This document shows positions 1-61,432 of a stretch of 64,000 nucleotides of DNA, one piece after another (position 1 is the first letter of the stretch; each line of letters begins with the position of its first letter). This DNA is from Capsaspora owczarzaki ATCC 30864 (taxonomy: Eukaryota; Opisthokonta; Filasterea), in the NCBI RefSeq assembly GCF_000151315.2, contig NW_011887300.1:747310-811309 (forward strand), read 5' to 3'. The notes under the pieces were generated by a model. It had not been told where the DNA came from. It saw only the letters and a list, made by a program, of their open reading frames with translations, and ran no database searches. The translations under genes and the position numbers were made by a program.

Positions 1-2031
1 CGTCGCCGCGCCCGTGTTTGGGCTGGAAAGCCGAAGAATGTCGTTGCCGTCGACCACGTCGCTATCGTGGCTTCCGGCGGACAGGTTTGCCGAGTGGATG
101 GCAAACGGCGACGTCGCCGCAGGATCCGCCTGAAGCGCCTTGCCAAACCCTAGCAGCTCAAGAAACGACGGCATCGCTCGCCGCTTCTTGATGGTGGCCA
201 CAAGGCGTCCTTCGCGGTAAATCGAGATGCACGCCTTGCGAAACCAGCGGCCACGCCCTCCCTTGCGCTGGCTGCGAATGGTGAGAAGCAGATCGCCTGC
301 AGTATCGACAATCGTGAACTGCATGCATCGATACTCGGACGGAATGACCAGAACGCCGGATGACATTGCGTAGTCGCTGCCAAGGGAGCCGGTCGGTGAG
401 GTAGACTGAGGCTTTGGTCGCTGGTTGACCGACGGGATGTTGGCGAATGTGGCATCGGCGGCACTCACAGGGGTCGTCGACGCTGGCGGCGCGATGCCTG
501 ATTCATCCGCCGAATGCCTGGCAGAAGGTGGGCCATGGCTCTCAGGCGACGAGACGACCGGCGTGTTGGGCGAGACAAAGCCCTGCGTCTGGCAGGTAAA
601 CAGCTTTTGCATGTTGCGGTCGAGCACGAAAATGTCGCCTCGCGCGTTCGCTCGATCTGTGATGATGAGTTCGCTGAGGCCGACGATGACGGTCGTAGCT
701 GGAGAGCATGGTTGTGGTGGTGGTGATGGTTGTTGCTGTTGTTGCTGTTGTTGCTGTTGGTGTGCTTGTGCGTGTTGTGGTGATTGCGGTTGTTGCTGTT
801 GCTGATGGAGGTGCGGAGGTTGTTGATGCGGTTGTAGCTGTGGAAGCGGCGAGTTGACCATAAAGTGCGGAGGAACGAGCGGTGAAACTGGAGTTGTTGG
901 GCTCTGGGGTCGCACAACAGCATTGTTGCCACCACCACCGCCGCCGCCACCACCAGCAGCGGCAGCACCACTATTACTATGACTTGGAACGACGACGACA
1001 GTGCCAGCAGCACGGGACGAGGACGACGACGACGACGACTGCGGCAAGACCAAACTTGGGTTGCCGCCGTTGCTTCCGCGTGGAGCTGGATGTGTCGAAG
1101 CAGGAAACACGGCAGTGGCACTATTGGAGTCGTGTGGCTGCCGAATCAGATGTAGACTACTTGCGGGAGCAGACGCGTTGGACGAGCTTGAATCAGTGGA
1201 TGTGGCTGAAACGACCGATCCGGTCGACTGCGACCTTGCACGACCCAGTCTCGCTGCGCCATGATGCTGCTCGTGACCTGCACTAGTGATACTACTTGAC
1301 GCGGCAGCTGCAGCAGCACTGCGCAGCATTTCAGCTTGGTCACCGATTCCACCCAGACCTTGCGCCTGCGCCTGCGGGTGAAGGAGGGTCCCTGGGGCGC
1401 CCTGGCTTGCGCCATACGCTTGTCCTTGACCTTGGCTCTGACTTGCGCCTTGGGTGTTTTGGGCGGTTTGGGATTGGCTGGACGGCTGCACTGACCCAGC
1501 GGTGCTATTTTGGTCGCGCGCTCGGGGGTCGGATCCTATGAGCAATCCCGCTTGAAGCTCGTTTGCGCTGATACTCGGGCTCACTGATTTTTCAGGATTC
1601 GGCTGGATTTGCTTGCCTCCGCTCGTTTGTTGTTGTGGCTTCCCGCCGCCGCCGCGTGTTTGGCCGCCCGCCGCCGCCGCCGCCGCCGCCGCCGCGCTCG
1701 TCGGTCCCAGCAGTGGGCTCGCAGCAGCAGCATTGCTGGCATTGAGCATGATGGCGGACGGGAAGAGCGGCGACGACGACGGGAGGTCTCCGAGCTGGTG
1801 TGACGTCGCCCACTGCTGCAGATGCAGGTTTGCCAGCGGCTGCTGCTGCTGCTGCTGGGACTGGGACTGGGACTGCATCATGAGCAGCGATGGCGGCAGC
1901 GATGAGCGAGACAGCGGCCGGCCGTCATCCTGCTCTGCTCCTGCTGCTCCTACTGCTATTGCTGCACCATCATCATCACCATGATCATGGTCAAAGTAAA
2001 AGTCGGCCTTCGACCGGTGATTGATCGCCAT
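1..2031 (-). CDS. Partial Gln/Ser/Pro-rich protein with possible scramblase/tubby-like C-terminal domain (runs off left edge)
   Basis: A single open frame reads from ATG at 2031 to base 1 (677 codons) without a stop, so the 3' end lies outside the window. The first ~430 residues are low complexity: Gln runs, an Ala run, Ser/Gly runs and a His/Gln stretch. A compact segment follows at about residues 440-610: IITDRANARGDIFVLDR, then QFTIVDTAGDLLLTIRS, then RKACISIYREGRLVATIKK. The alternation of 'DR..G.ifvLD' and 'fTIVD..G.lLlTIR' strands followed by a basic strand resembles the phospholipid scramblase/LURP1/tubby-C2 fold, but this is a by-eye resemblance. The low-complexity N-terminus would suit a transcription or RNA-binding regulator equally well. 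Opposite-strand and shifted-frame ORFs here are repeats read in other frames. No intron is needed. The frame is certain; the function is not. Confidence 0.7.
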   Translation of the reverse strand, partial: MAINHRSKADFYFDHDHGDDDGAAIAVGAAGAEQDDGRPLSRSSLPPSLLMMQSQSQSQQQQQQPLANLHLQQWATSHQLGDLPSSSPLFPSAIMLNASNAAAASPLLGPTSAAAAAAAAAGGQTRGGGGKPQQQTSGGKQIQPNPEKSVSPSISANELQAGLLIGSDPRARDQNSTAGSVQPSSQSQTAQNTQGASQSQGQGQAYGASQGAPGTLLHPQAQAQGLGGIGDQAEMLRSAAAAAASSSITSAGHEQHHGAARLGRARSQSTGSVVSATSTDSSSSNASAPASSLHLIRQPHDSNSATAVFPASTHPAPRGSNGGNPSLVLPQSSSSSSSSRAAGTVVVVPSHSNSGAAAAGGGGGGGGGNNAVVRPQSPTTPVSPLVPPHFMVNSPLPQLQPHQQPPHLHQQQQQPQSPQHAQAHQQQQQQQQQQPSPPPQPCSPATTVIVGLSELIITDRANARGDIFVLDRNMQKLFTCQTQGFVSPNTPVVSSPESHGPPSARHSADESGIAPPASTTPVSAADATFANIPSVNQRPKPQSTSPTGSLGSDYAMSSGVLVIPSEYRCMQFTIVDTAGDLLLTIRSQRKGGRGRWFRKACISIYREGRLVATIKKRRAMPSFLELLGFGKALQADPAATSPFAIHSANLSAGSHDSDVVDGNDILRLSSPNTGAAT

Positions 2032-2292
2032 TCGACTTGGTACAAAAACAAGTCGCAATGGGATGAAAACGAGTTGCAGAATATGAGGTTCAAAACTGGA
2101 TCGAGGAAGAGTGGGGAGAGAATGAGGTGTGGATCTCAGAAACAAGGGAATGACTGAGCATACGAAAAAACAATAAAAGACGCGCGCGGGTTGGTGCAAA
2201 AAATGATCCATTTTACTGTTTTTGAAAACAGATCGCTTTCAACGTTTTGATTTCGGTTACCAGCTACACTGCATGTAGTCACAGCACCGCTG

Positions 2293-3609
2293 CTACAAGG
2301 ACGTGGCAAAGTGCCGGATCAAATCCACATAGACATCACGGCACTGGCGAAGATCCGCCTTGGACATGCGCTCGTTGGCAGTGTGCGCGTGGAGAATCGA
2401 GCCGGCGCCGTACAGATACGCCTTTCCAGGGGCTGCCAACTCAAAGTACGGAATGTCCGTGTTAAAGTTGACAATGGCAGACGGCAGCACCCAGTTGACG
2501 GGATCGGTGGGCGCGCGGCGCGTGCGGTGGCATTCGTCGACGACAGACAGGTCGATGGGCGGGTTGCAGGTGGTAAACTCAATCTTGCCGCGGGTGCCGA
2601 CAATGCTGGAGAGCTGCGCCTGAATGTCCTCGGGTGTCGTGACGACGCGCACAAGCAGCTCGGCGACAGCTCGCGCAGGCACAACGTTGCAGGCGACGCC
2701 GCCCTCGCGCACAATAAAGTTGACCGTCGTATCGCCCAGCAGCGGGTCGCTCGGCCACGCGTGCGCTCGAATGTCGCCAAGAATATCCATCAACGGCAGC
2801 AGCGCGTTGACGCCGGTTTCTGGGTAGCCAGAATGCGCGGCGACGCCTTCGCAGCTGATGGAGGCCTTGACAATGCCCTTCTGGCGCCGCGCCATGCGCG
2901 ACTCGGTTGGCTCTCCCACAACCAAGTGCCGTGGGGTCAACTTGAGCTCGTTGGCGCGCTTCATGCCAATGTGATCGGTCTCTTCGCCGACGACGAGCAG
3001 CAGCCCGACATCGACGACGCCGTGCACGGTGACTGCCTCGTGTGCAGCCAGCATCATGGCAGCCAAAAGACTCTTGGTGTCACAGGCTCCACGCCCATAC
3101 AGGAACTCGGCGTCCTCGCTTGGCGGGATGTACGGTGGCACCGTGTCGATGTGCGTGTTGAGCAGAATGGCCGGATTTCCAACCGGACCGACCCTGCGGC
3201 GCGCAGACTGCGTACCACCATCCGTCCCAGCAGATGCAGACGACGATGACAATGACGGTGACCCGGCATGACCGTCGGGGTGACTCTTGTCCTCGTAGTA
3301 GGCAAACAGGTTGAATCGCTGCTCGACCGCGTCGACGCATTGCCTGCGAACAGTCCATCCGCGCTTGGCCAGCCACGCTTCAACCACTGCACAGACAAGA
3401 CAGACAGACAGACAAACAGACAAGACAGACAGGCCAGTGAGAACCACAGAGCAAGTCACAAGGATGGGGGAAGCACTCTTGGTACTGGTTGCACTGCGAT
3501 CACTTTGCGTTCGTCAGTCATCATGTCCCAGTAGTAGCAGTAGTACATTGGATTCTATGATGAGCTATGGGGTTATGTTATTGCAAAAAAACGGCTCACC
3601 GTCTGCCAT
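2293..3609 (-). CDS. M20-family deacylase (acetylornithine deacetylase / ArgE-like)
   Basis: Two exons, 3609..3600 and 3386..2293, give 367 residues. The 10-nt first exon (ATGGCAGACG, donor gtgagc) joins in phase 1 to an acceptor at 3387, giving a start of MADVVEAWLAKRGW. This is preferred to an in-frame upstream start lying in the pyrimidine tract of the intron. M20 metallopeptidase-fold motifs appear in order: LLNTHIDTVPP (metal His and Asp), GRGACDTKS (bridging Asp), VVGEETDH (catalytic Glu pair), VVGEPTES and the C-terminal HAHTANERM (metal His). The lid/dimerisation segment AAHSGYPETGVNA lies between. Known members remove acyl groups from N-acetylated amino acids, here most like N-acetylornithine deacetylase of arginine biosynthesis. 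Length is normal for the family and all metal ligands are present, so the enzyme should be active and probably cytosolic. It lies 287 bases downstream of the Hook gene on the same strand. Confidence 0.85.
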
Positions 3610-3744
3610 GGCTGCTTCAGAGCTCAAACAGGTCGTCCAGCTGCTCGACTTTGACTTTGTGCGTCTGTGGCATGATTGGGAAAAATAGAGGAGTGATGTT
3701 CAATTTGTATTGCATTGGATTGGATTGCTGGGATGGAGTGCTGA

Positions 3745-3798
3745 CAAAAAAAAAACTGTCGTGTTGATTGTCAAAAAAAAAACTGTCGTGTTGATTGT
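3745..3798. repeat. 27-bp tandem duplication
   Basis: Two perfect head-to-tail copies of a 27-base unit (C, ten A, then CTGTCGTGTTGATTGT) at 3745-3771 and 3772-3798, in the spacer between the M20 gene and the 3' end of the Hook gene. Probably replication slippage; no function seen. Confidence 0.9.
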
Positions 3799-3896
3799 TT
3801 GTTTTGACAAACCCGGATTCTCGCAATTCGCAGACGCACAACTCGGCCAAACACACATAGGATGCGTGCGAAACGGGAGAAGAAGAGGACGACAGG

Positions 3897-6800
3897 TTAT
3901 GAATCGCCAAGGCGTCCGGTAATATTTGCGCGCTGCCGTGCGAGGAAGGACTTTGCTTGGAATCGCTCCGACACGGTCGACTGCTGCAGCTTGAGCACAA
4001 TCGAGTGGAATGCCGATGTGGTCAAGCGTTGCTGGCGGACAAAATCGTCCTGTGCGCCGGCCATCTTGATCTGTGTTGATACGGCCAAAGAAACAAACGG
4101 AAAAATCAGCACCGAATCGGCCCGGTCTTTTCGCCATCGTCGTCACAGACCCAAACACCAAACGCGGTACCTTAAGTGCGGAAACTTCACTATCTTTGGC
4201 GGCAAGACGCTTTTGCATGTCACCCAGTGCTTGAGAGTCGCTTTCGCCGCCAGCCTGGCCTTGTCCACTTTGGAGTTGCGCTTCAAGTGAAGCAACCTTC
4301 TCGCGCTCTTTTTTGATAACCTGCGACGACACATGAACAAATCAAAGGAAAACAACGGCCATTCCCGTCAATTTCCACAACCATGAATCCTCGCGCTCTC
4401 GCGTTCTCCTACATCCATAAACCCTTCTTCTTCTTTTCCGTCTCACTTACCGTTTTGGCCTCGTTGAGCCAGGTTTGATGCTTCTCCACTTCCAACGCTT
4501 TTTGTGTGAGTTTGGTGCGGGCACCTTCCAGCTGGCCGTTCGCGTCGGTCAGCTTGGTCTCGACGGCATCACGTTCCTCCTTGAGCGTATTGAAACCGCC
4601 CTCCAGCTTGTAGCTGCGAGCACGCTCCTCGTCCAGCTGCTTGCGCAAATCGGCAATTTCGCCGGCATTGGAGGCATGATGCCCCTTGCTCGTAAGCTCG
4701 CCTTCGAGTTTGCGCATGACGTCTTTCGAGTCGGACACTTCGGACTGCAGCGTGATAAACTTTTCTTGCACATCGAGGTACTTGGATTGCAGCTCGGCCT
4801 TCTCGGTGAGGACTGCGTTGATGCGCTCGAGCTGCTCCTTGCCGCGGTGCTCAAGCTGCTCGCGGACAGTCACCAGGTTGTCGTGCTTGACTTGCAAGCT
4901 CTCGAGCGCGTTCGACATGGGGTCAAAGCTGGCCTGCAGGGCTTGGAGCTTGGCGGACAGCTCGTCGCGCTCGGTCTGCAGCGGCGCCACAGCTGCTTGC
5001 AGCTTGGCCTCGCTTTCTTGGGCAAAGCGCGTGTTCATTTCAGAAACCATCTCTTGCTTGTCCATGCTCAGGAGCGCCTGTTGCTTCTTGAGCTCGACCA
5101 GTTCCTTCTGCGCCGATTCGAGCTCGTCCTTGACAATGCCATACGTCCGTTGGGAATCATCCAGCTTGCCCTGCAACTCCTCGTTCTCTTGGCGGAACTT
5201 GCTGGTGGCGCGCTCGCTCTCGGCCAACTGCTGCCAAGCGATGCTTTCCGCGCCAGAGCGCACCTGCTGCTTTTGGAGATCGTCGAATCGAGTCTGGAGC
5301 TGGGTCTTGTCGCCTTCCAAGCGCATGAGCTTTTGCTGCTGATCCAGAATCTCACGCTCGAGCTTTCCACGAGCCTCGTTGGCGTCATCCAGCAGCGCCT
5401 GCAGCATCTTGGAGGATTCGCCCTGGCCCTCGCCAGCCCCAGAATCGCCTCCTGCCAAGCTGGCCTTGAGTTTGGCGTTCTCGCGCTCAAGTCGGGCCAG
5501 CCGCTCTCGGAGATCCGGGGTCATTGCGTTGAACGAGTCAGCCAGCGACGAACTACCGGCGCTGGCAGCAAGGCTGGCGCCGAGACTGGCACCGCCACCC
5601 ATGCTCAGTTGGTCTTCGGTCTCGGACAACTTGTGCTTCAGCTGCTCAATCTCGCTCGCCTTGGCCTTGCTCTCCTCGCGGAATTGCGTCGCCTCCAGCG
5701 CGGCCTTTTGCATTTGGAGCTGAGCCTCGTTGAGCTGCGCCTGCAAGGCGACCGTGCTCTCACGATACCGTTCCATTTGGCCCTGGTGGAGAGTGATTGC
5801 ATGGAATGTGAGTCAGGTGGTCCAGTGATGCAACAACCAGCTCACAAACAAAAAAAACGCCAAACAATCAAAAAACACCAAACAAAAACCGAAACACCAA
5901 ACAAAAACAAAATCCCCCTATTGCCGTACTTTGATGGCATTGTACTTGGCGCGCTCATCCTCCAGATCCAGCTGCTGCTGCATAAAGCTGTTGTTACGGT
6001 CATCGGCATCCTTGAGACGCTGCTTCAGATCATTCATGTCTTCGAGCTTTTTCTTGTAGTTTTCGACGGAAGCTTCCAATTTGGTCACTTTGGCAGCAGA
6101 GTGCTGAAGCACCTCAAACTCTTCGCGCATGGTCTTGGAGTCTGCCGCGTCCTTGGCGAGAGAGTCAACCTTGTGGCGAAGGTCGACAATCGTCTTTTGC
6201 TGCTCCTCGGCCTGGAGCTTGTACTGGTCGCGGAGACCTTCGATCTGATCGAGTTGCTCGCGAAGGTTGTTGACCTCGCCGCGCAGAGCAGCCTGAGCCT
6301 TTCCGGCAGGCGTGCCGGGAATGGGCGAGTCTGCGTCATCGAGCAAGCTCTTCAGGCGCTCGCGCTCGGCAATCACGTCGTCGAGGTCGCCTTGCACTTG
6401 GCGCAATTGTCGCGACGAGTCCTGGTACAGGTTTTCAAAGTCGTTCTTGGCAGCCTCGAGTTGGCGGAGTCGCGCTTTGAGGGCATCGACCGAGTCGTCG
6501 TCGCCCGAGTGGCCGGGCTGGCGCAGCTCCGAGCCCGCAGAGGACGTACGCGCACGACCGCGCGAGACAAGCTCCTGGATGGCCTGCATAATGACGGCCT
6601 GCTCCTCCATGCTCATTTGGAGGATGGCCTGGACGAACGGCTCCTTGCCAGTGCATTGCACGGCGCTGCCAATCAGCAACACAATCAGCTTGCTGAGTTC
6701 GTGCAAGTCCTCATTCTCGCCGATCAGCGCCACGTCCGGCATGTCCGATTGCTGGATGTTTATTGCGAGTTCCTATGGACATTCAGAGATAGAGAGAGTG

Positions 6801-52958: not shown

Positions 52959-55900
52959 ATGTCTCGATTTGTCGAGGTCGAGCGGCAGATCAGCGCCGTG
53001 CTTGAGGCCAGCAGATCGAATGCCAAACACGACAATAACGAGAGCAATGATGATGATGATGATGCCTGCCAGACGGCGATGGCGAGCATGGTCGCTGCAG
53101 CGAGCGCTCTGCTGGGAGCAAAGCGAAACGCCATCAGCACCGCGCGCGCAGCTGCTTCGACCGCGTCCGCCGCCTCTGCAGGGATTTCGAGCACGTGGAA
53201 TGCAGATCTACTGGCCGCGCTGGCCGAGGACGACGAGCTGGCCTTCTTGGAGCACGTTGAGGCGCAGCAAGGTCAGGTCGCAGTTCGCGCGCTCCGTGTC
53301 TGCGCTTGGCGTGCGCGCCAGACCGGCCCGTTCAAGCAGGACGTTGATGCACACCTTGCCTTGCAAATCGAAGCCTCGGAGCGGCGGTGGAGCGAACTCG
53401 AGCAACCCGCGGTCGCACGTGTGCCGGCCATCTGTGCAGTTGCAATGCAACGTCAAGTCTATGCTCAGCTCGTGAATACTGCTCGAGAGCACTTGGGATT
53501 GTCAGCAAGCACGTTGCCAAGCGATCGGGAATGGCTGGCAACGCTGGACAATGTCGGACTGCTGGACGACGTACCGGACGTTGCCGCCACTGCTCAGCTG
53601 GGAACGTTGCAGCCGTGGCTGGACACTCGCATCGATAGGACACTCGCTTGGATGGATTTGAATACGGAAAAGCTGTTTGTGGAAGACTTGCCATGTGTGC
53701 AATGGAGCATTCCGGACGCCGTGCGCGTTACTCTGCCACGCATCCTGACGTGCCATGGCAGCGACGCGCTGGTCGCCGAGCAACGTCTTCAAGTATGTAG
53801 TGTGTGTGTGTGTGCCAGTCGAGCACGAACGTTGCTTGTGTCTGTTGTTCCTCCCGCTCGCTTTGTGTTGCTTGTGTCTCACCCCTTCCTCATCATTCTC
53901 GTCCGTTTGAAGCTGCTGATGACAGGCCCTTGCCCGCGCTCCTTTCTCTACTCTAAAAACGCAGACCACACCTCATCCATGACGCCGGTGGTGCTGGCCA
54001 TCCTGGAGAGCCTGCGCTTGATGCGAATGACTGCAGACGAGGTTTGTGCACCAAGCGTTTTTTGCTTTTGACGTTGCTCCGCTTTGTCTCAAGTTCATCT
54101 TGTCATCATTCCTGACATTGTTATCATTGTGCAGGTCTACTTTGAAAATCAACTGGAGCATTGTCGAACCACTTTGACGCTACAAGGCGGCACGTTTGAT
54201 GGTTGCGCCGTCTCCATCCTGAATCTCAGCAACGAGCGACAAGCCGTGACATCGCTTGTGCAGCTCTGCAATACCATGATGGCTGCGACGACCGCCCCTG
54301 CGAGCGCTACATTCGTTCAAGTACCCGACCATGTGGCAAAATACATTGAGCTGGTTCATTCCACCTATGAACATTTGCGGAATCGCGCATACGAGTACTG
54401 GACTGCCGTGATTGGCACTCGTCCCGCCGCTCTTGAATCACGGAAGATTGGCGATAGTGAGTTCTTACGTTCTGAACCGACTTTAATGTTTGCACCAACT
54501 CGATCTCATTCTATTTCATGACGCAGTCGTTGACAAACCGCATACAGACCTCTTGCAGTGGCTGCACAACGCCGGGATGACTTCAATTGCGGAAAATCAT
54601 CTGAGCATTGCCGATTTCGAGCACACTGGGCGTGGAGTGCTGGCGAACGAACGCATCGAAGCTGGTGTTGAAGTGCTGCATTTGCCTCAGCACCTTCTCA
54701 TCAACATTCACGTTGCATTGGACGAATCCCACCCAATCGGCCGAGTCCTATCAGACCTGCGGGACGAGTATGACGACGACACGCTGCTGCTGCTTTACGT
54801 TCTGCACGAAAAGCTTGTCGCTGGGTCGGCCTCGCGCTGGGCACCGTTCTTTGAAACATTGCCTGCGACGTACAACTCGCCGCTGCTCTTCCATGTGACT
54901 GAGCTGCTGGAGCTGGAAGGCACGCGTCTCATTGATGAAACGTTCGAGATCAAAGATGGCCTCCGCGTCTTGCACGAGTCGCTGGGTCCGCTCGCTGAGG
55001 CGTACCCTGCTCTTTTCCCCACCGACGCGTTTACGTACGAAAACTTGCTGTGGGTGCGAGCTATGATTGACAGTCGAGCCATGAAGCTGCCTGTTCCGGC
55101 TGCTGCTGCTGCTGTTGCTGCTGCGGCTCCTGAGGACGCCACTGAAACCCCCTTCGTGGCCAACCTCATCCCGTTCGTTGACATGATCAACCACGAGGAG
55201 CATTCGCACATTTCGGTTCGTCGATATGACACGTCGGCCAAGGCACTTGTGCTGACCACGCTCGGAGCTTGTGCAGCTGGCACCCAGCTCTCGCTTCATT
55301 ACAGCACGCTGCCTTCCTGGCAGCAGCTGCTGTACTATGGCATGCTGAGCACTGAGTTGAACCCCCTCACTGTCACCGTTGACGTCTACTTTACTGCCAA
55401 TAATCCGGACGAAAGTTCATCAGACGCGGACACAGCCCCTGCTGCTGTTGTTGATGACGAGGAGGGCGGTGATGATGAGTCAGACACTGCCATGGACGAA
55501 TTGGACGCCGACTTGAACGATGACGAGGCGCAAGAATTGTATGGCTCCTATTTCGACCAGGGTCCGATCGCCAAGTGGATGGACGAGCACTTTTTGCCGC
55601 GCACTCACACGCTTGCGCGTGGGATGCATTCGTCGCTCCTCCTCCCATGTGTCTGTGCGACAGTCCTGTCCGCTGAAGAATTTGAGGCTGTGCGTGAAGA
55701 AACGCTGACTTTGCTGGCGCTGCAGAGCGAGTCAGAGCACAACGAGGCTGCCAACCAACTCTTGCGCCGCCAAGTGGCCCTTGACGCCTTGTCGAACGTA
55801 TCCGAAGACGTGCGAACGCGAGCTACCGAATCGATTGCGAGCGTTTTGACAGAGTTGATGGAAGCGTTTGGCACGACCGCTGAAGAGGACTCGGAATTGT

Positions 55901-56094
55901 TGGCCGACAGCGCTCAAACCGACGACAGCGAAATGCTCAGCGTGAATCGAACGCTGGCTATTCGGTACCGTCGGGGTATCAAGCTCGTCATTGCAGACAA
56001 TCTCGACAAGGCCAACCGCGGTGATTTCGGAGCCTCTGCTTACACGTATGCTGAAGAGGATGGCAATGTGTGTGATTACGGCGAGTGCAACTGA
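52959..56094 (+). CDS. SET-domain protein (SETD3/SETD4/LSMT-like) with an unrecognised N-terminal half
   Basis: The model has four exons, 52959..53796, 53965..54041, 54135..54456 and 54527..56094, giving 934 residues. The first intron is uncertain: its bases are also open in frame, and the chosen donor (gtagtg) was picked on phase. The later introns are clear. Residues 1-410 match nothing I know; they are helical and Ala-rich with an acidic run near 30. From about 418 (LLQWLHNAGMTSIAENHLSI, then FEHTGRGVLANERIEAG) a RuBisCO-LSMT-type SET domain follows with ANLIPFVDMINHEEHSHISV (about 630) and LSLHYSTLPSWQQLLYYG. A substrate-binding-like C-terminal domain, with an acidic insertion, comes after. 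Known relatives methylate lysine or histidine, for example of actin. The N-terminal half could in principle be a separate gene, but the phases and absence of a stop favour one protein. Confidence 0.75.
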
Positions 56095-56933
56095 GTCTTG
56101 AAGACGTTTTGATGATTGCTTGAAGGGAAGGGGTTGAATTGCATTTGGCTCTGCGCGCCGTTTGGTGTTTGTTCGAATACACATTTTTTTTTCTTTTTCT
56201 TTTTTTTTTTTTTTTTTTTTTTCATTTCTTTTGTTTTTGTTTCTTTTTTTGTTTTTTTGTCTCTTTCCCTTCGTGAAGCACAGGTAACACCCTGCAGTGC
56301 CACATTTCTCGCCTCCCAATACTCAGCTGTCACGACGCGAGTCCTGAGAACACCTGACAGTGTGAGAGGAACCCTGGAGACGTTTGAGAGGGGAGTTTGA
56401 GGGAAGCTTATCGACTTTGTTGTTGAGTCTGCACGCGGGGTTTGCCGTGTTGGTCAAAGCGGGCCGCACTCGCAGGCAAACGACGCACTGTCTTTGTCAT
56501 GTGCAAGTGAAAGCACTGGTTTGGAAATGTAATGGCGCAAGCAAAGGGCGTGAGAGAGAGAGCGGATGAGTGGCGCAGAAAGAAAAAAGCACAAACCAAC
56601 TAAGAGCATGCTCCCAAACAACTAGCACAGCGATCAAGAGCCTTTCGTGGTGCAGCAGTGGAATAGGAAGAGAGCAAGAACACTCTCTTCAGTGCGGGAT
56701 AGCGAGAGTGTGAGAGAGTGTGTCTGTGAGAATGAGAAAGAGTGGGTGAGACATCCGCAGCTGGGTGTTATCTTGTCGTCTTTTTTTTTTTTTTTTTTTT
56801 TTGTTTTGTTTGTTTTGTTTGTTTGTTTGGTTTCGCTTTTCTTGCTTCTTCCCTTCCGGCTTGAGATGATGCTGAGCTGACTATTTCTATTTCATTCAAA
56901 CAGGAAGCAAACTCACAACGACCAAGTCCAAAA
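56095..56933. other. Pyrimidine-rich leader upstream of the receptor kinase
   Basis: 839 bases without a gene. T-tracts at 56184-56222 and 56780-56802. A good acceptor (ttcattcaaacag, ending 56903) lies 30 bases before the start codon, suggesting a 5'-UTR intron. A GA-rich patch lies near 56550-56570. Confidence 0.5.
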
Positions 56934-59900
56934 ATGGCGAATCTGACGCTTTTGTGGGGAGGCATCGTCGTCGTTTTGCTCATGGCCTGCCTCGCCCCTC
57001 ACACACTGGGCGACATCCACAATCTCCCAACACTCTGGACGAACGCGGCCAAGACCATTCGTCCGCAGCTTTATGGTCGCAATGTCGTGTTGGCGCCTGA
57101 CGGTGGACGAAACGCCATCTCAAATGCTTACGAAAACAACATGGGGCTCAATTCCCAGCTGCCCGATGTCTATCATAACGAGATCATGATTCGTTACACT
57201 CAAGAGTACCTCGCCAACGCGGGTGCAACCGTCTTCATGACACGCGAGCGCTGGTTTGGCACGTCCGACGAGCAGATTCTGGACGATCAATCGTCTGCCA
57301 ACTGCATCAAAACTGGTGGATGGACTTCCTACGGCGTTGGGTTCCTCGGTTACCACTCGTACGTATTTGGCAACCTGAATGCAGAAACAGCCGTCGCAGC
57401 TTTCGTGACCACCCTTGCCGCCGATGGGTACTATCCCGTGTACATTCGTGGTTTGGGCGACGGCCAAAACCGTGCCTCTCGCACGCTCATTCGTATCTTC
57501 CACTCTGGTGGCACAACTACCCTGTACATGAATCAAAACATGTACAGCAGGCAGTGGATGTATGCCGGTCGCTACTACTTTACCAAGACAGGCTTTCGCG
57601 TCGAAGTTTCCAACAAGCTTGACTTTGCCGTCGACGCTGGCAGATGCGTCATTGCAGATGCAGTTCGCGTCGGTTGCGGTTCCCTTGGCGGCTATCCTCG
57701 CTTCCACTACGGCACGTCCAGCTTTTTGACCTACATGAACTACACTGTCAGCACGAGCTCGGCAACAGCGATGGCTGATTTCAGCAAGCAGATGATTCAA
57801 GGCGATCTGGAAACTGCCAACTGGCAAAATTGGGCGCTTTTCTACCTTTATAGCACCTACAACTCTGGCGACTCCGCAATTCGTGGCACCCAGGATTTCA
57901 GCTACAGCAACGTAAGTGCATGAAACGGAATGTGTGCTTTTCGCGCTACTCTTCGATTAATGATTTTGCTCGATAGGGTCGTACCTCGCCATACACGGGC
58001 ATCACCAGTACGGCGATCTACAACTCCTCATTGCAGGCCGCTTCGGATAGCTTCTGCGACGCCATTCATGCGGCCGCAGTTTCAACGGGTCTTGTAGACA
58101 AAGCCAAGGACCTTCATCAATGGCCGCCGCTTGATTCGTCCTCACGAATGCCCACCATGATGGCCGTTCCTTATTACATCACCAACAATGCAGACATGCT
58201 ACTGGCTCAGTCCGAAGCGGGTCGCGAGAATGTACGTACGCTGTGGGCTTTGCTTTCATGAGCTGGTGCAGTGAATCTCACACGAATCTTCTTCCTCCAT
58301 CAAACAGCTCGGGCGCGCATACTACAAGGGTATTGCCAAGTACTTTTCATCGACCGCCACCATCATTCCGCTCCCTGTCAACTACCTGCACACCATCAAC
58401 CAAGGCGGCAACGTGGTTCGAGTCTGCTGGCGCCAACCTGACGACACCCAAGAGTCCACTGACGCTGCGACCGCGTTCAAGATTTACCGGTCTACCGATG
58501 GACGCGGATGGGATGATGGAGTCATCGTCGCCGCTTTTACGTACCTTAACAGCTTGTGCTACGACGTTACATCTCTGACAGTCGGGCAAGTCTACTTTTT
58601 CAAGGTTGCTGGTCTCAATGCAGGAGGCGAAGCGTTGACCAAATGGACGGCAGCGGCGCGCGTGACCGACCCTGCTGTTGGTGTCACTCGTCCGCCAATT
58701 GTCATCGTCGACTGCTTTGTCGAAGGCTTTGTGCACACTTCTACCAACATCGAGGGTCGGTACACGCGGGAGTATGTGGTCGAGCACGCCCTGTCGATTG
58801 CTGGAGCCGGTTACTCGTTTGATTCTGCATCTGCAGACATTTTTTCTGAGTCCCAATGGGTTACCACCCACCTAGCAATGTACAAGACGGTTGTCTGGGC
58901 GTCGGGTGATACGGCCGCCAACATCAATGTCTTCCCTGCTGTTGCGCAAACCGCCATCAACTCGTGGATTGCAGGTGCCTCCTCTGCAAGCCCTCGCTCA
59001 CTTTTCGTCAGTGGCTCGAACGTCGCTGCTGGCCTTAGTGCTGCGGGCAGTACCAGCCTCACCTTCCTCAACAGTCAACTCAAGTCCACCTTTGTCACAC
59101 CAATGCAAACACTTTCGTTGTTCGCCCGAACGCTGGATTCACCATGAGCGGCACTGTGGCCTTCAACAGCATTGTGGCGCTGGGGAACCCATACGCTGTC
59201 AGCTCGCCGGATCAGATCGGCACAGCAGGCACAGGAACAGCGGCGCTGTTCTACGGCCCTTCGTCTGGGACGAATGTCGCTGGTGTCAGCTCACGCAGCA
59301 CGACGGGATATTATGCTTCCTTCTTGCTTGCCTTCCCTTTTGAAACGATCAACTCGCGAGACGAGCGCGACAAGTTGATGGCTTCGATCTTGTCCACCAT
59401 CATGTTTGCGGCTCCTGACTTGCCTTTGGCGCTGCCGTCCGTCAGCTCGGCTGCCAGCATGGCCACGCAAGCTTCTGTTGCTTCCCGAAGCTCTGCTTCG
59501 ATTGCAGCCACCGTGTCTGCAAGCGTTGCCTCAATTGCTTCGATTGCATCCACAGTCTCCGCCACGGTTGCTTCGGCATCGTCTGCATCAGTTGCCTCAG
59601 AATCGTCTGCATCAATTGCCTCAGCATCATCAGCGTCAATGGCCTCGGCATCATCAGCGTCAATCGCCTCGGCATCGTCAGAATCGGCGGCGTCAGCATC
59701 AGCTGCCTCAGGATCATCAGCATCAGCCGCCTCGGCATCGTCAGCATCGGGCGCGCCCGTAGTCTCAGACACAGCACCCCCACCGAACAGCAGCAGCTTT
59801 TCCGTTGCGCCTGTCGCTGGCGCGGTCGGTGGCGGTGCTGGTTTGATCATTGTGATTGTGCTCGTCGTCCTTTTGCGACAACGTCGGCGCCGACAACAGA

Positions 59901-61432
59901 AAAGTAACCCCAATTTGAAAACCAAGCCATCTTCTGTCCCTGCTATTCACTCCTTGGAGCTTCAAGAGCCGATGTATACAACTCCTGCTGCGATTTACGC
60001 CGCTGCTGCGTCGTCGACCGTCGTTTATGCCGAAGCATCGGACAACACCACGTATCCCTCCGCCCCCGGTTTCACTGAAGCAACTGCGGGCGATGCATTC
60101 AGCAATTACGCAGGAAATGTTCGCAGCCCGACGTACGACAACGCTAATGTAGGCGCTGCAGGTGCGAGCTCTATGACTGCAGCCATTTACCCACGGGTCG
60201 ATGCATCCCAAAGTAGCAAGCCAGCAACAGACAGCTTGTATGACAAAGTAGTGGCCGTGGTCGACTTGGAGGAGTACAACTCGGCAACGTCGAGCAGGAT
60301 TTACGACTACGCCCTCCCACTCACTCACCTTTTGCGCGAACGGCTCGACTTTGGCTCGCAGCTTGGATCTGGTGCCTTTGGCGTGGTGCGGCTTGGACAA
60401 CTGCCCCGCTCTTTGGTTCCGGCCATGGCGCGAGATCTGCTGGTCACTCCTAACCAACCCTTCTTGAACGTTGCAATCAAAACGCTCCAGGAAGGTGCCA
60501 GCGAGAAAAACCGCAGCGAATTTGTGGAAGAGGCAAGCATGGTGGCCAAGTTCAACAACCCCAACATTGTGCGGGCTATCGCAGTGCTGCTCGAGGCTGA
60601 GCCATGCATGATTATCTTGGAACTCATGCCTTTCGGCGATTTGCGCAAAGTGATGCAGCAGTCCAAGCAGCAAAACCTCTCGTGGACCTTAGCCGAATTC
60701 GGGCATGTGCTCGCTCAGGTGGCCTCCGGTTTGGAGTACCTGGCGTCTATCCGTTTTGTGCATCGCGATCTTGCGGCTCGCAACTGCCTGGTAGGAGCTG
60801 GGTTGTCGGTGAAGATTTCCGACTTTGGACTTTCTCGGTCGTTGTCTGTCAAGGATTACTATCACATGGAAACCAAAGGGCGTCTGCCAGTCAGGGTGAG
60901 TTGTGTATTGTTTTGTTGTTCATCTGGAAGAAGCCTCAAGTTGTGTTTCAACATCATTTGGAACTCGAGAAGTCGCCCCCACACGCTAACTCTTGGAATG
61001 GCTGAAACAATGTTTTGAACAAACGACAACAATAGTGGATGGCTCCAGAGTCGCTCAGCTTCTTCAAGTTCTCACACGAAAGCGATATTTGGTCGTTTGG
61101 TGTTCTTTCTTGTCAGTTGGAGTTGCTGGTGTCGGGTTGTCCACGGGGACTGGCGAATTGAAGCGCTGACCAATGACTTGGCAATGAACACAGGGGAGGT
61201 CTTCTCGTACGGCACGTCTCCGTTTGCAAAGGTGCTCGGCCGCGACCTTCTTGCTCACATCGAAGCTGGAAACCGACTGGCTCAACCAAAGGATTGCCCA
61301 TTCCACACTTACGTGCTGCTCCTTTCGTGCTGGCAACTGGAACCCGAAAAACGTCCGACCGGTGCTACGCTGCGCCAGGCATTCAGAGAGATGGCCCTGC
61401 ATCAACCGGTTCGTGATATCGGCGCGTTGTGA
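56934..61432 (+). CDS. Receptor tyrosine kinase with bacterial-type amidase/golvesin/FN3 ectodomain (one frame break)
   Basis: Exons 56934..57911, 57977..58231, 58308..60895, 61036..61111 and 61194..61432 encode about 1,377 residues. After a signal peptide, residues 40-140 resemble an amidase_3 domain (NVVLAPDGGRNAI; YHNEIMIRYTQEYLANAGAT; VFMTRER). Next comes a golvesin/xanthan-lyase-like beta domain (VYIRGLGDG to GRCVIADAVRVGCG), the amidase-like end MMAVPYYITNNADML with RAYYKGIAKYF, then FN3 (FKIYRSTDGRGWDDGV) and a further domain (PIVIVDCFVEGF to FLLAFPFETIN). Near 59100-59101 the frame shifts by two bases in continuous homology: a disabling change or a sequence error. A Ser/Ala stalk (about 59456-59760), a TM helix (GGGAGLIIVIVLVVLL) and a Tyr-rich juxtamembrane region follow. 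The kinase has LGSGAFGVVR, VAIKTL, FVHRDLAARNCLVG, ISDFGLSRS with YYHM, and WMAPESL. All kinase catalytic residues are present. Confidence 0.82.
59456..59760 (+). repeat. Coding repeat (Ser/Ala stalk) of the receptor kinase
   Basis: Tandem 15-30-base units such as GCATCGTCAGCATCAGCCGC encode SASSASAAS/ASIASASS directly outside the TM helix, parallel to the stalk repeat at 17310-17590 in the LRR protein. Confidence 0.85.

Follow-up and report, generated by a model that had tools for sequence, protein, structure and literature searches.

A predicted pseudo-amidase/golvesin ectodomain of bacterial type is attached to two distinct tyrosine kinases in Capsaspora owczarzaki

We analysed a 64,000-nucleotide (nt) stretch of Capsaspora owczarzaki DNA (hereafter, the window) and found in it a five-exon gene at 56934-61432 on the plus strand that is of the receptor-tyrosine-kinase type, although broken as assembled. 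Its ectodomain is homologous over the whole length to a family of bacterial proteins and has the same order of parts, namely an amidase-like fold, a golvesin-type domain, an FN3-like domain and a C-terminal module (C-module), and it belongs to that family. The ectodomain is found at nine or more Capsaspora loci and is attached to a tyrosine kinase at two of the nine, the window and a locus on contig C19 (L032), where the kinases are of different subfamilies. We give a probability of roughly 50% to the whole interpretation, in which a bacterial amidase/golvesin ectodomain was captured, is catalytically dead, came to occupy nine loci, was joined to kinases twice and serves as a non-catalytic, glycan-binding receptor head.

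Two kinase attachments

The tyrosine kinase domain of the window gene (60344-61414, plus strand, in the pieces 60344-60895, 61036-61111 and 61194-61414) contains GSGAFG, VAIK, HRDLAARN and DFG motifs. Its exon-3 part alone matched the Pfam tyrosine kinase family PF07714 with an E-value of 1.3e-46, in agreement with a first-pass annotation of this DNA, which had reported a complete HRDLAARN tyrosine kinase. Against the PDB, the spliced domain matched MuSK (1.3e-59) and an EGFR chain with two kinase copies (1.9e-98), and a degenerate DNA pattern for HRDLAARN occurred once in the window and in none of 100 shuffles.

The window kinase was 64% identical to a kinase at C5:740822, and the L032 kinase was 93% identical to that of L068 and 47-48% identical to the window kinase. 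We built a kinase tree from 39 loci (35 different sequences), consisting of the 30 loci that best match the window kinase, eight other kinase loci and L032. In this tree, L032 fell in a group of four (support 100/100) and the window kinase in a separate group of 21 (95/98). Forcing the two to be sisters, in a test on 30 of the 39 rows with the pair chosen after the first kinase tree was seen, cost 105 log-likelihood units and was rejected (approximately unbiased test, p-AU 3.24e-55). A single shared ectodomain-kinase fusion was ruled out by this result.

We then located the joins. The window and its paralog L029 share a stretch with 96.2% DNA identity that starts in the 5' flank and extends into the stalk (56766-59748, plus strand), and homology between them ends at 59748. 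In L032 (C19:145000-152500), ectodomain homology ends at 3984-4068, the transmembrane helix lies at 4132-4224 and kinase homology begins at 4213-4245; positions 1001 to 5200 of the turned locus contain no N. Both joins therefore map between the stalk and the end of the transmembrane helix. Given that the two kinases are of different subfamilies and that the joins fall within the stalk/transmembrane region, we conclude that kinases were attached at least twice. Upstream same-frame sequence was scanned for ten other kinases; one of them had Sushi repeats and two had Calx-beta domains above cut-off (L057, L045 and L061), so ectodomain exchange looks general in Capsaspora.

The ectodomain family in Capsaspora

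An ectodomain search and a golvesin search agreed on at least nine loci, located on contigs C2 (three), C5 (two), C13 (two), C9 (one) and C19 (one). The genome comprises 27.46 Mb in 29 contigs and gave 176 PF07714 matches, which are matches and not genes. Two GAPDH qPCR primers published for Capsaspora (PMC9170242) match it exactly and point towards each other at 989 and 1501 of L037; an 80-base coYki homology arm from that paper gave no match, a negative that is uninformative in this type of search. At the seven loci other than the window and L032, no kinase was found by tblastn with the kinase side of the window gene, a search limited to the DNA fetched around each locus. Four of these loci (L029, L030, L031 and L035) end in a transmembrane helix and a short tail with three, three, five and four Yxx[LIVM] motifs, respectively. 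L033 and L034 stop soon after the transmembrane helix in the frame read, with no tyrosine in that tail, and in L036 (C13:825000-833500) part of the ectodomain gene is duplicated internally, which cuts this copy short. While L029, L030, L033 and L034 could be spliced through without a break to beyond the C-module, L031 and L035 were read as exon pieces only, and no break was seen in those pieces.

In addition, hmmscan detected a Furin-like Cys-rich region in L029, at 36.2 bits against a cut-off of 26.8. L029 and L030, both on C2, are kinase-less near-twins of the window copy; L030 appears by reading only to have a Furin-like Cys-rich region as well, and the tails of both carry YDTL/YASI motifs. 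The two proteins are possibly co-receptors or kinase substrates.

Gene structure and domain layout

All features of the window gene lie on the plus strand. Exon 1 (56934-57911) encodes a putative signal peptide (56934-57011, a hydrophobic N-terminus recognized by inspection), the N-terminal half of the amidase-like fold (about 57078-57254) and a golvesin-type domain (Golvesin_C, PF25275; 57276-57671), which is inserted between the two halves of that fold. Exon 2 (57977-58231) encodes the C-terminal half, where positions 84-173 of the Amidase_3 profile corresponded to residues 332-421 below the curated cut-off. Exon 3 (58308-60895) contains the end of the fold, the FN3-like domain (58380-58634), the C-module (58692-59392; IVIVDCF ... 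LFVSGS ... FPFET), a Ser/Ala-rich stalk (59432-59770, with approximate limits read from the sequence), a putative transmembrane helix (59813-59875, by inspection) with RQRRRRQQK directly after it, a tyrosine-rich juxtamembrane region (59876-60343; 11 Tyr per 169 residues, counted over a stretch reaching into the kinase start) and the start of the kinase. Exons 4 (61036-61111) and 5 (61194-61432) complete the gene. The four introns are all of the GT-AG type, with lengths of 65 nt (57912-57976), 76 nt (58232-58307), 140 nt (60896-61035) and 82 nt (61112-61193); the first two correspond exactly to the exon junctions 57911/57977 and 58231/58308 that had been predicted.

The three ectodomain segments named in advance (Amidase_3, golvesin and FN3) scored unequally in the Pfam scan. 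Golvesin_C was well above its curated cut-off (E-value 1.8e-16; 60.8 bits against 31.6; residues 115-246), which places the domain in that family, whereas Amidase_3 (E-value 1.4e-5; 25.6 bits against 27) and fn3 (14.2 bits against 25) fell below theirs in the window copy. No NCBIfam family matched the ectodomain at E-values up to 1. Searched against the PDB, the ectodomain returned three weak matches, two of which were amidases (E-values 0.2 and 0.64), and the C-module returned four (0.29 to 0.49). Across the aligned C-modules of the window and the bacterial proteins, weak resemblance to DUF4960 (3 of 21 members) and to ThuA (3 of 21) was observed, hinting that this module may have a ThuA/GATase-like fold.

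The plus-strand neighbour upstream (54487-56094) is a SET/Rubisco-LSMT-like gene, with Rubis-subs-bind above cut-off and SET just under it; two other neighbouring frames had no Pfam match. Long poly-T tracts lie in the 5' flank at 56186-56260 and 56781-56803, and the block duplicated with L029, which begins at 56766, starts close to one of them.

A frame break in the window copy

The first-pass annotation had described one chain from signal peptide to kinase. Its exons, domains and order were largely borne out, but no single open frame covers the chain. The exon-3 frame that continues the ectodomain ends at a stop at 59147, and a shifted frame, open throughout 59039-61018, encodes the end of the C-module (FPFET), the stalk, the transmembrane helix and the first part of the kinase. 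The break maps to 59097-59116, where the window has 20 nt and two near paralogs, with 95% and 92% protein identity to it in exon 1, have an in-frame stretch of 21 nt. An intron at this place was ruled out, because the stretch differs from both paralogs by one nucleotide in length. The break is either a real lesion or a sequence error, and the window copy may be active although frame-broken as assembled.

We also calculated pairwise ratios of nonsynonymous to synonymous substitution (dN/dS). The values were 0.395 for window-L029 (672 codons) and 0.552 for window-L030 (671 codons), and for the part of the C-module after the break they were 0.281 and 0.112, respectively (108 codons, with few changes). 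These values fit purifying selection, although pairwise values cannot assign it to the window branch.

These data bear on a different view of the family, in which recombination in the stalk region produced the kinase-bearing copies as by-products that are decaying or already decayed, and the working members are the kinase-less surface proteins. A 1-nt ectodomain frame break at both kinase-bearing loci would be expected from such decay, as would the absence of breaks at six of the seven kinase-less loci as read (L031 and L035 as pieces, L036 being shortened by its duplication) and the near-identity of the window copy to L029 as far as the stalk. However, the window kinase is complete, its motifs being present and its splice sites canonical, and the ectodomain dN/dS is below 1, even though such pairwise constraint may sit on the paralog branch. 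Moreover, only a single lesion was seen per gene, which sequence error would also produce. We regard decay as a serious but rather unlikely explanation.

Loss of catalytic residues

To score the amidase active site, we aligned eight Capsaspora and 19 bacterial rows; L032 was left out owing to its frame break, and the L035 piece stops before the last site. We take the aligned positions to have the ligand and catalytic roles that they have in the amidase family. The first zinc His, the absence of which had been noted at the outset in the window copy, was lost in all eight Capsaspora rows and kept in all 19 bacterial rows, and the same was true of the second zinc His. The catalytic Glu was lost in each of the seven Capsaspora rows scored and again kept in 19 of 19 bacterial rows. 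The second-ligand column has Glu in all eight Capsaspora rows, and in bacteria it has Glu in 10 of 19, Asp in two and another residue in seven; in bacterial rows with neither Glu nor Asp, a conserved Glu-Asp just upstream may substitute. Judged from this alignment, the ectodomain is a pseudo-amidase, with three of the four aligned catalytic positions lost in every Capsaspora row scored. Because catalytic residues have been lost, the Capsaspora form looks derived.

It had been suggested that such a receptor may sense bacterial wall or polysaccharide. Catalysis is known to be lost with the fold retained in wall-recognition proteins, and the amidase-like fold is kin to proteins that keep the His, His and Glu positions, so that the dead cleft could still bind bacterial wall and detect prey or symbiont bacteria. 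On the other hand, the zinc-site residues are gone in the rows scored, and substrate affinity may have been lost with them, while the glycan-binding precedent concerns the golvesin-type domain and N-glycans. We consider a peptidoglycan or polysaccharide sensor of this kind doubtful; given the golvesin-type domain, glycan binding appears, by analogy, at least as likely as wall sensing.

Bacterial relatives of the ectodomain

By tblastn, relatives of the ectodomain were found in four plasmid records (all Bacteroidota by genus) and in five faecal contigs of a phage collection, and two of the plasmid matches were annotated as xanthan lyase. 'Xanthan lyase' proteins of P. distasonis and B. finegoldii and one faecal contig have the same domain order, with 23-24% identity to Capsaspora L034. 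A pattern scan of genome_contigs yielded at least 544 relatives among the 596 matches listed, of which 80 were kept. Each of the 80 contains an open frame that matches L034 (21-26% identity); in 30, a single blastp segment spans L034 from residue 100 or lower to residue 787 or higher.

Whole-genome searches were then made with L034 as the query (E-value up to 1e-10). Matches were found in at least five of 400 Chloroflexota genomes (best 138.5 bits, covering residues 43-791 of 793), in 24 of 40 genomes of Sumerlaeota, presumably the name for BRC1 (best 124 bits), and in at least 23 of 395 Bacteroidota genomes (best 69.5 bits). The Chloroflexota and Bacteroidota counts are lower bounds, with at most two candidates scored per genome. 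In the order of the best Chloroflexota genome, one of 28 genomes had a match. The best-scoring sampled relatives, from Chloroflexota and Sumerlaeota, were ~30% identical to the ectodomain. The extracellular order is thus that of bacterial proteins, as had been proposed, but the best-scoring ones are from these two phyla rather than from the Bacteroidota that had been singled out.

We constructed an ectodomain tree with 33 rows, representing four of the nine Capsaspora loci, 20 of the 80 genome_contigs loci and nine further bacterial loci; a midpoint root was used for drawing only. The four Capsaspora rows formed one clade (100/100) on the side of Sumerlaeota and Chloroflexota, and 18 rows from Bacteroidota, Ignavibacteria, Neomarinimicrobiota or their subgroups lay across a 100/100 branch from it. 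Letter composition was deviant in 17 rows, including those of Capsaspora L033 and L034. Bacteroidota are unsupported as the donor, since the Capsaspora clade is on the opposite side of that branch. The check that the first-pass annotation had named, a search and phylogeny of the ectodomain, thus returned full-length bacterial homologs and a 100/100 Capsaspora clade, with the Capsaspora genome as its eukaryotic side.

These comparisons suggest that the ectodomain was likely transferred from bacteria, the direction presumably being into the Capsaspora lineage. The capture that had been proposed is to this extent upheld, but what had been seen as one bacterial protein fused to one kinase is a nine-locus family with kinases at two loci, attached separately. 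Ancient vertical inheritance within eukaryotes, with loss elsewhere and no transfer into this lineage, might be suggested by a golvesin protein in Dictyostelium and by the very long branch to bacteria. It seems improbable in view of the 544 or more bacterial relatives among the matches listed, with almost the full ectodomain covered in 30 of the 80 retained, and of the catalytic loss, which makes the Capsaspora form look derived. An assembly chimera or contamination that joined a bacterial gene to a kinase gene could account for a frame break inside the gene, but this is ruled out for all practical purposes by the single open frame from the end of the C-module through the stalk and transmembrane helix into the kinase, the introns in the ectodomain, the nine loci on five contigs, the neighbour of eukaryotic type and the second, different and independent ectodomain-kinase join at L032.

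Proposed function and significance

In the interpretation that we favour, the ectodomain would have been captured once from the bacterial amidase/golvesin family, would have lost its amidase active site and then spread to nine loci, and would have been joined to two different tyrosine kinases around the Ser/Ala stalk and transmembrane helix. The golvesin-type domain might act as a lectin, with the dead amidase and the C-module as a scaffold or second site. Receptor tyrosine kinases in general signal through ligand-induced clustering and trans-phosphorylation. Likewise, the kinase here would be activated in trans by ligand binding or clustering, and the paralogs that have Tyr-bearing tails but no kinase might serve as co-receptors or substrates.

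By analogy, glycan sensing is the most likely role of the ectodomain. The golvesin-type carbohydrate-binding modules (CBMs) of the Bacteroides proteins Cbeg4 and Cbeg5 bind N-linked glycans that share Gal-b1,3-GlcNAc-b1,2-Man-a1,3-Man, according to an excerpt of PMC9166713. Capsaspora, which attacks schistosomes, was isolated from a freshwater snail as its putative endosymbiont (excerpt of PMC9170242), so host, parasite and bacterial glycans are all candidate ligands.

Several points weigh against this interpretation. The window copy as assembled has a net 1-nt break, so that the kinase is out of frame with the long ectodomain, and the other kinase-bearing copy, L032, also has a 1-nt break, in ectodomain exon 1. 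The branch leading to Capsaspora is long (1.67). Donor sampling covered three phyla and one pattern scan, and the eukaryotic side of the search was the Capsaspora genome, so the spread in eukaryotes may be wider; a golvesin protein is known in Dictyostelium. Finally, the argument for glycan binding comes from domain resemblance.

More broadly, and somewhat more tentatively, the dead bacterial enzyme may be a reusable receptor head in this close unicellular relative of animals. It would have been plugged at least twice, within the low-complexity stretch of stalk and transmembrane helix, onto kinases from different subfamilies, and in other copies onto tails that lack a kinase and carry repeated YDxL-like motifs, to give a set of glycan-sensing receptors and co-receptors. 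If so, proteins of bacterial origin can apparently be reused as receptor heads. How unicellular holozoans built their large receptor tyrosine kinase repertoires, and what these receptors sense, is an open question, and the present family offers a concrete case in which a bacterial architecture appears to have become a pseudo-enzyme receptor head, with its joins mapped and two kinase attachments. No description of this ectodomain on a kinase was found among literature titles and abstract openings, a scope that does not include the main Capsaspora kinase survey. The ligand is directly testable with the ectodomain of an in-frame paralog, and Capsaspora is amenable to transfection and gene disruption (excerpt of PMC9170242; see also PMC6001378).

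Comparison with known systems

Among bacterial proteins, the Bacteroidota 'xanthan lyase' proteins (WP_154395863.1 of P. distasonis and WP_195399325.1 of B. finegoldii) resemble the Capsaspora forms in having a split amidase-like fold with a golvesin insert, an FN3-like domain and a C-module ending in FPFE. They keep the His, His and Glu residues and have no kinase in Pfam, whereas the Capsaspora forms have lost these residues and have a transmembrane helix. Members from Chloroflexota and Sumerlaeota (G288/L151, G426/L152 and others) are the best-scoring sampled relatives over nearly the whole ectodomain and, unlike Capsaspora, have the catalytic positions. L152 scores above the Pfam cut-offs for Golvesin_C, Amidase_3 (51.1 bits) and fn3 (38.7 bits), while the window copy does so for Golvesin_C alone. 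No kinase was found in Pfam in L152, an 867-residue piece of a longer frame and the sole Chloroflexota/Sumerlaeota member scanned.

The Bacteroides lectins Cbeg4 and Cbeg5 combine a signal peptide, FN3 and an N-glycan-binding CBM of a type, IPR033803, that is also given for golvesin and a xanthan lyase; they are described as secreted lectins, and the likeness is by domain type, not by assignment to exactly the same family (PMC9166713, in the excerpt cited above). On the eukaryotic side, holozoan receptor tyrosine kinases such as Monosiga RTKB2 (PMC3584944; see also PMC8662651) likewise have catalytic kinase motifs and show ectodomain exchange, and they have a single transmembrane helix, as the window gene appears to have by inspection. 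In the portions of these two sources that were available, their ectodomains are built of Cys-rich, SCR, EGF, FN3 and LRR-type modules, whereas those of the Capsaspora receptors have a bacterial amidase/golvesin architecture.

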